DNA of 64,000 nucleotides. It comes from Candidatus Poseidoniaceae archaeon (lineage in GTDB: Archaea; Thermoplasmatota; Poseidoniia; Poseidoniales; Poseidoniaceae). Numbering within the stretch: the stretch's first letter is position 1; every line of letters starts with the position of its first letter. Of this stretch, positions 54,480-57,260 are shown piece after piece. Location of the stretch: contig CALJHE010000002.1 in assembly GCA_938075675.1 (NCBI GenBank), positions 62,001-126,000 of the forward strand, in the 5' to 3' direction. A model generated the notes under the pieces. The model saw only the letters and a program-made list of their open reading frames with translations, was not told where the DNA came from and ran no database searches. The translations under genes and the position numbers were made by a program.

Positions 54480-57260
54480 TCACTCTTCTTCAGAATCAAT
54501 GGCTTTCAGTGCCTGTGCTGCCTCGAATTCTTCACGAGTGACGATGCCATCATTGTCGGTATCCATTTCTTCAAACTCATCAGCAGGTGTTTCAAGCAAC
54601 TCAGCAGGTAGGCGTGCTGCGAAGATAATGTGGTCAACAAAGCCAGTTCTCTTGGCATTTCGGAGTTCCATTACCCGCGTTCCCTTGGATTTCTTGTTCT
54701 TGGTTTCCTTGGTTTGAGCTGCGTTAATTCGAATCATCATACCTTTCTTGGTAAGAAGGAAAAGATTGTCATCGAGGTTAGGGATTTGACGTGCACTGAT
54801 GATGAAATCGCCGTTCTCATGGTCAAGATTCATCGTGAACGCGCCCTTAGCACCAGGTTTCGTCTTGCGGTATCCATCGGTTCGCAGTTTTCCTTCACCG
54901 GTTTCGGTATCGATCTTTTGATTACCATCAGCATCCAAATCTGGAATCTTTTCTGATGTGCCAAGACGGCTACGCTTTGCCATTCCGTTGCGGGTAATGG
55001 TCAGAATCTGCGTATCGGTATTTTCTGTGGCCATCATAGCAACTACATGGCCGCCGTCTGCGTTTTTACGGTTACCAGTTTTGATACCGTACACACCTGC
55101 CGAAACTCGACCAGATGAACGAATATCAGAACAGGCGAAACGGCTTGCAAATCCAGTGCTTGAAATCATCACGACTGAGGAATCGTTGGTTCCGGTTCGA
55201 ACGTTGACAAGGCTGTCATTGTCAAGTTTGAAGCGGAGGGCATATTTGCCGTTGCGGTTAATGCGCACATACTCTTCCAACTTGGTTTTCTTAATGAGTC
55301 CAAGACGGGTGGCAAACAGCAGGAAGTGTCCTTCCGGTGATTCAAGCAAGTCACGAGTGATCGGTAGGATTGTGACGATGTTTTCATCGTCCTGTATCTT
55401 CTCAATGACGTTTCGGATATGGCTGCCACGAGCATGACGGCTTCCAAGAGGAGTTTCCCACGCCTTGAGGCCGTAAACTCGACCCTTATCGGTGAAGATG
55501 AGCAACCTGTCTTTACTGAAACATGTTACAATCAATTGAGGGGTATCCTCATTCTTCGTAGCAACGCCCTTGAGACCTTTTCCACCGCGGTTTTGGACAC
55601 GGAAGAGTTCAACTGGCATGTGACGAATGTAGTTGTCCTCGCTCAAAGTGATTGCAATTGCTCTCTCTTCAATCAAGTCTTCACGGTTCATGGAAAGAGG
55701 CATTGGGTCAATGAATGAACGACGTTCGTCGCCGTGCCGTTCAACCATATCGTCCAATTCACTGAGTAAAATACTCAATCTACGAGTTCGAGAAGCAATG
55801 ATTTCCTGTAGATCTGCAATCCGGAGTTTCAATTCTGCGTGTTCATTCTGAACTTTGTCGACGTCAAGACGGCTAAGCTGGTACAAACGACGTTCAGCGA
55901 TAGCCTTAGCCTGGGCTTCAGTGAAACTAAACGGCGCAATACCAGACATGGTTTCATTTCCTTGAAGAACGGCTTCAAATTGTTCTCGGCTGGAACTGGC
56001 TTTTCCAACTGCAACGACATCATCAATACGATCTTGTGCCAAGACAAGGCCTTCTAGAATGTGCGCACGGGCCTGAGCTTTGTTCAAGTCAAATTGTGCT
56101 CGGCGTTCAATGATTGATTCGCGATGTGATACGTGAGTATGCAGCATAACCGGTAGAGTAAGAAGAACGGGACGACCGTCCAAAATCCCCATCATGTTAG
56201 CAGAATAAGATTCCTGCAAACGGCTGGATTTGAACAGTTGATTCAATACAGCATGTGGATCGGCGTTGTTCTTGACTTCAATGACGACACGGATACCTTC
56301 TTTCGATGATTCATCTCGGATGTCACGGATACCAATGATTGCACCCTTGGTAACCAGTTCTGCGATGTGGACCAGCATATCTGCCTTTTTCACTTGATAC
56401 GGGATTTCATGAATTATTATTCTCTTGCCCTTTGAATCGTCCATTACATCGCACTTTGAGCGCACATGGAATCGGCCTTTTCCAGAGGAATACATATCAT
56501 AGATTCCGTCAATTCCGTGAATGGATGCGCCGGTAGGGAAATCAGGACCTTTGACATGCTCCATGTATTCTTCTATAGAGATTTGAGGCATTCCTGTGTT
56601 GGCCTCCCCTTCCTCGATAATCCGGTTAACATGCATGTGGATAGCACCCGCAATCTCAGTCAAATTATGAGGCGGAATGCGCGTAGCCATACCGACCGCA
56701 ATTCCATCGCTTCCGTTGAGCAAAAGGTTCGGCAGTCGTGATGGAAGAACAGTAGGTTCTTGTTCAGAATCGTCAAAATTAGGCTGGAAGTCTACGGTTT
56801 TCTTATCAATATCCTCAAGCATGTGCTTTGCGATTTTGTCAAGGCGGCTTTCCGTGTAACGCATGGCCGCAGGAGGGTCTCCGTCAATTGAACCAAAATT
56901 GCCTTGCCCGTCAACAAGCGGATATCGAAGTGAAAATTCTTGAGCCATTCGTACCATTGTGTCGTAAATTGATTGATCGCCGTGAGGGTGGTACTTACCC
57001 ATGACTTCACCGACTGAACGAGCTGACTTGCTGAATTTCTTTTCCGAAGTATGGCCACCTTCATGCATTCCGTAGAGAACTCTACGATGGACCGGCTTCA
57101 AACCGTCACGCGCGTCAGGTAGTGCTCTTCCAATAATAACCGACATTGCGTAGTTGATGTACGATGTTTTCATCTCATCGTTGAGCGGATGGTTGAGAAC
57201 ATTCTCCGTAGAGATTGTTTGGTCTTCTTGTTGTTCTTCATCGATTTCATCAGATGTCAA
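54480..57260 (-). CDS. gyrA: DNA gyrase subunit A with C-terminal EF-hand-like extension (TTG start)
   Basis: [30 protein letters not shown], catalytic Tyr in [10 protein letters not shown], GyrA-box-like QNRGGKG; C-term [23 protein letters not shown] at 57267..57274. Confidence 0.96.

Follow-up and report, generated by a model that had tools for sequence, protein, structure and literature searches.

DNA gyrase sets the supercoiling of the chromosome; how it is tuned between species is debated, and the non-conserved C-terminal tail of its A subunit, GyrA, has already been implicated. In E. coli and B. subtilis, GyrA carries an acidic C-terminal tail (Tretter and Berger, 2012; Lanz, 2014, as cited in PMC6463007 and PMC7038939). 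In E. coli and Salmonella, the tail competes with DNA for the GyrA propeller and sets the level of supercoiling (PMC6463007), and it has also been invoked for the loss of the DNA wrap during the catalytic cycle (PMC11626157). In M. tuberculosis, GyrA is described as having a putative Ca2+-binding EF-hand motif between its NTD and CTD that modulates activity; by one proposal, it tips the enzyme between supercoiling on one side and relaxation/decatenation on the other (Karkare, 2012, cited through PMC4643928 and PMC4585971). Among archaea, gyrase has been studied in the laboratory species Thermococcus kodakarensis (PMC8643681). A literature search that covered subscription journals thinly found no paper on a Poseidoniales gyrase with an EF-hand, and a survey of archaeal gyrases mentions neither EF-hands nor calcium (PMC9348778).

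The locus compared here with these systems comes from the genome of a member of the Poseidoniaceae (Marine Group II, order Poseidoniales), and the named genomes closest to it are MAGs that bear the label Candidatus Poseidoniaceae or Poseidoniales. Within the window, which is the whole 64,000-nucleotide stretch of DNA that was analysed, the list of open reading frames (ORFs) places gyrB (57250..59199, minus strand, 649 aa) directly upstream of gyrA (54480..57260, minus strand, TTG start, 926 aa), the two genes lying in tandem with an 11-base overlap. The product of gyrA is a DNA gyrase subunit A: it matches NCBIfam PRK05560 at the equivalog level (943 bits against a cut-off of 902), its Pfam domains DNA_topoisoIV and DNA_gyraseA_C form a normal breakage-reunion domain and propeller, and its CTD contains QNRGGKG, which is the GyrA box Q(R/K)RGG(R/K)G with one residue changed. 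The modelled CTD matches experimental structures of this domain from E. coli, Salmonella, Xanthomonas and M. tuberculosis (best E=6e-29).

As in the E. coli and B. subtilis enzymes, a strongly acidic extension follows the last blade of a basic, DNA-wrapping propeller; in the source GyrA, the tail has a charge of -13 over 38 residues against +15 for the CTD. The tail of E. coli is described as unstructured and rich in acidic residues, whereas the Poseidoniales tail can embed a conserved EF-hand, whose gain and loss are separable from the tail itself. The source protein ends in a single canonical EF-hand followed by -SEEE. Its loop (positions 1-12; 54528..54563, minus strand) has ligands at positions 1, 3, 5, 9 and 12, Gly at 6 and a hydrophobic residue at 8, and lies exactly where the first-pass annotation had proposed an EF-hand fused to the C-terminus of GyrA. 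The loop is flanked by a predicted entering (E) helix, ADEFEEM (54564..54584, minus strand), and by a predicted exiting (F) helix of 17 residues (54486..54536, minus strand); the terminal -EEE is encoded at 54483..54491 (minus strand). The arrangement resembles that of Pfam EF-hand_1/5/6/7, with a 12-residue loop of the form D-x-[DN]-x-D-G-x-[VI]-[STD]-x-x-E between what are here predicted helices. Unlike usual EF-hands, this one is single, has a short predicted E helix and is fused to a topoisomerase.

When the whole of GyrA is scanned, EF-hand_1 stays below threshold (E=7e-4). The last 39 aa alone reach 25.6 bits and so pass the Pfam gathering score of 25.4, and each of the 18 different homologous tails that were scanned has a match to EF-hand_1/5/6/7/8 at E<=0.1. 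Calcium-binding proteins are the top matches in a PDB search with the tail profile, and when the tail residues were shuffled, 20 of 300,000 trials produced a similar pattern, although conservation, described below, is the stronger argument. The EF-hand is neither an artefact nor a chance match. An assembly error as the origin of the tail was rejected, since the same tail is present in many independent assemblies and four assemblies from this species or a very close one (L002, L003, L031 and L042; 97-99% identity) have it too. No second EF-hand was found in GyrA or GyrB by Pfam scan and by comparison of propeller inserts; one 29-residue propeller insert (54873..54953, minus strand) looks like an EF-hand at first sight and was set aside because it is hypervariable in relatives.

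The Poseidoniales and M. tuberculosis enzymes are alike in having a putative Ca2+-type EF-hand motif within GyrA. In M. tuberculosis this motif lies between the NTD and CTD, whereas in Poseidoniales it lies at the C-terminus. The aligned 14-residue stretch of the source GyrA contains no EF-hand loop of the M. tuberculosis type, homology between the two sites is ruled out by their position, and, as judged from the alignment, the two motifs are independent features. The earlier remark that no standard GyrA has an EF-hand must therefore be narrowed in view of the putative motif of M. tuberculosis. A Ca2+ site in gyrase was thus already known from M. tuberculosis, and what is new here is a motif of this kind in an acidic C-terminal tail.

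Conservation was examined in 293 Poseidoniales genomes, of which 275 gave a match to GyrA, together with a scan of genome contigs. In this sample, 191 GyrA sequences have a complete C-terminus, corresponding to 148 distinct proteins; the genomes are mostly MAGs, and binning errors may underlie some of the GyrA placements. The EF-hand is present in 52 of the 148 proteins and absent in 96, and the carriers come from many unrelated assemblies. D5, G6, E12 and F at -4 occur in all 52 EF-hand GyrA and D1 in 51, the sole exception being L076. Other sites vary within limits (D/N at position 3, V/I at 8, S/T/D at 9, M/I at -1 and F/Y at +1). In the exiting helix, the Ala residues at +3 and +4 are conserved, and synonymous codon variation is abundant at the invariant residues. 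Because synonymous sites are near saturation, pN/pS from pairwise counts serves to rank regions and is not an estimate of dN/dS; on this scale, the 24-codon motif scores 0.069 against 0.051 for the enzyme core in pairs that are 93-99.5% identical and 0.219 against 0.191 in pairs that are 75-85% identical, which places it above 88 of 142 core windows and inside the enzyme's normal range, whereas the 6 codons after the motif score 0.50-0.84 and are near unconstrained. By the same measure, positions 1, 3, 5, 6, 8 and 12 of the loop score 0.031 and the other loop positions 0.237. These patterns show that the EF-hand is maintained by purifying selection at its putative metal-ligand positions. The acidic positions of the loop do not vary freely among relatives, and many related gyrases carry the tail, in agreement with the first-pass annotation.

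All sampled Poseidoniales GyrA have an acidic tail, and the EF-hand always lies within such a tail, with a mean charge of -12.9 where the EF-hand is present and -8.1 where it is absent. The last three residues are -EEE in 146 of the 148 proteins and -GEE in the other two. Two further ORFs of the window also end in -EEE (10065-10538, minus strand, and 32226-33482, plus strand), and such an ending may be common among these proteins in general. Since tails that lack the EF-hand are acidic too and the -EEE end is almost universal in both groups, and since E. coli-type tails are thought to act through charge (PMC6463007), the negative charge alone could count and the likeness to an EF-hand could be incidental. 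A tail of this kind should change about as freely as the linker beside it (pN/pS 0.5-0.8), whereas constraint is about 8-fold higher at the ligand positions than in the rest of the loop. Moreover, the conserved G6, F-4, V/I8 and F/Y+1 carry no acidic charge, and the exchange of D3 for N3 is compensated by S/T9 or D9. With these points against it, an effect of charge alone appears improbable.

The compensation follows a strict rule, in that D at position 3 is always paired with S or T at position 9 (41 of 52) and N always with D (11 of 52). The two positions covary in all 52 proteins, and the gene tree shows four switches between the pairings. The rule also holds in an additional sequence, L252/L315 (DTNGDGVIDKEE). 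As a consequence, the number of acidic ligands is always four, except in L076, in which D1 is lost. Because N3 mostly arrives within the block NQDGVID, the covariation may be partly due to block exchange between two types of EF-hand and not to stepwise compensation.

On a fast GyrA tree built without the tail columns, the EF-hand state changes at least 11 times, a count that does not separate gain from loss. Carriers belong to several genera of the source's family and, in the sister family, to genus g15 (two genomes); none of the 18 GyrA sampled from MGIII and other Thermoplasmatota has the EF-hand. Relatives that are about 92% identical (L009-L016) have no EF-hand and retain the acidic tail; the EF-hand is thus not essential to gyrase. 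It has been repeatedly gained or lost, and the surrounding acidic tail and the -EEE end persist.

Some tails and placements on the tree are unusual in other ways. Sequences of genus g11 (L118/L119, family f1) fall inside the g15 clade, those of g21 (L140-L144, family f2) fall inside the clade of the other family, and the tails of G124 and G233 (L168/L179) are identical; these cases reflect either transfer of gyrA between families or contamination of MAGs. In MGIII, GyrA (L296, L297, L298 and L300) has a Cys4 zinc-ribbon-like tail (CPEC...CGTCG), and other Thermoplasmatota (L302 and L311) have basic tails rich in Lys. It seems that different lineages attach modules of their own at the C-terminus of GyrA.

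EF-hand modules are also found in other proteins of these archaea. In the source's genus, g1, each of the 11 genomes sampled has an EF-hand pair inserted in subunit a/I (V_ATPase_I) of the A-type ATP synthase (for instance L212/L320; G000:C1:25927-27072, with the pair at aa 344-400 of a 789-aa ORF), and the insert is apparently lacking in the other sampled genera, judged by matches split around it. Ribosomal protein L18a has two C-terminal EF-hands and an EKEEE end in both genomes of genus g7, and only there (L276 and L277; G043:C44:21084-21491 and G477:C8:1820-2227); the g7 GyrA examined (L158) has no EF-hand. A multi-TM protein of genome G020 (L350:12-1979), whose membrane part has no Pfam match, has a C-terminal EF-hand pair and an ESEEE end. 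This pair is related to the ATP synthase insert, and the protein is a possible donor of it. In genome G045, a 565-aa Zn-ribbon, acidic-repeat membrane-type protein (L257; G045:C4:112312-112383) contains a 21-residue segment that is almost the same as the EF-hand of that genome's own GyrA. Gene conversion within G045 is unsupported, as the gyrA segment shares 41 of 48 bases with L257 and 40 of 48 with gyrA of other lineages. An origin of the source's GyrA EF-hand from another protein of its own genome was likewise rejected: there is no close second copy of the kind seen in G045, and the next best match has E=7e-4.

These modules, the near-identical segment in G045 and the many changes on the GyrA tree would fit EF-hand segments that move between genes and are kept temporarily without a role specific to gyrase. 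Idle baggage would not be expected to show the strong purifying selection seen while the EF-hand is present, its long persistence in clades (the one that includes L065 and L068, for instance, keeps it in each of its 12 sequences) or the covariation of positions 3 and 9, and we give this explanation little weight.

The structure of the tail was predicted with AlphaFold2 from the CTD and tail, using alignments of 77 and 42 homologues. Helices were placed around the loop both in the source GyrA (387-393, at low confidence, and 403-419, with a pLDDT of about 60) and in the divergent L060 (386-396 and 406-414), with a pLDDT of about 50-65 over both tails. The predicted helix-loop-helix is compatible with a flexible EF-hand and falls short of proof. 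The hydrophobic residues F-4, M/I-1, V/I8 and F/Y+1 and the Ala at +3 and +4 are conserved about as well as the ligands, which fits a packing surface. The EF-hand could thus be structural, holding Ca2+ or Mg2+ permanently without sensing it, while the tail docks on a protein or on the tail of a partner GyrA and so localises gyrase or stabilises the complex. Single EF-hands often require a partner, and a lineage-specific partner would fit the dispensability of the EF-hand in relatives. Conversely, a search of the source genome with the tail profile gave no candidate partner (the next match, noted above, is weak and is a large, extracellular-looking protein), and the loop is embedded in an acidic tail whose known role in bacteria is on the propeller. 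We regard such docking or structural binding as the chief rival to a metal switch, possible but somewhat unlikely.

The best reading of the tail, which we hold at roughly even chances, is a switch operated by a divalent metal, probably Ca2+, and built into the acidic tail of GyrA. In EF-hands, Glu at position 12 favours Ca2+ over Mg2+. Since this position is always Glu in the GyrA loop, the divalent cation that it is presumed to bind would more likely be Ca2+. In the metal-free state, the acidic tail (-13) would compete with DNA for the basic propeller (+15). Bound metal would fold and partly neutralise the tail and so alter this competition, and the occupancy of the site would thereby adjust DNA wrapping and the set point of supercoiling. 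The whole would be a Ca2+-gated version of the tail mechanism of E. coli and B. subtilis, and the coupling of supercoiling to Ca2+ raised by the first-pass annotation is plausible on this analysis. The source genome encodes two proteins of the Na+/Ca2+-exchanger family; such proteins are common in prokaryotes and therefore lend weak support to Ca2+ control. Most EF-hands act in pairs, although pairing is usual and not universal, and the lone EF-hand in GyrA counts against a metal switch, as do the predicted short E helix, the low pLDDT of the modelled tail, the loss of D1 in L076 and the absence of the EF-hand from close relatives.

More broadly, cytosolic Ca2+ or another divalent ion could be an internal signal read by EF-hands on gyrase in many lineages, on ATP synthase subunit a in g1, on L18a in g7 and on membrane proteins, with the GyrA tail coupling supercoiling to it; this wider proposal is speculative, and we are inclined to doubt it. 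The presence or absence of a selected motif of metal-binding type in otherwise similar enzymes (about 92% identity) amounts to a natural experiment; the closely related GyrA of L007, with the EF-hand, and L009, without it, form one such pair. If functional, the recurrent EF-hands on housekeeping proteins of these very abundant marine archaea would point to calcium signalling in archaea, and the EF-hand in the GyrA tail suggests that a metal ion may help to set the twist of their DNA.
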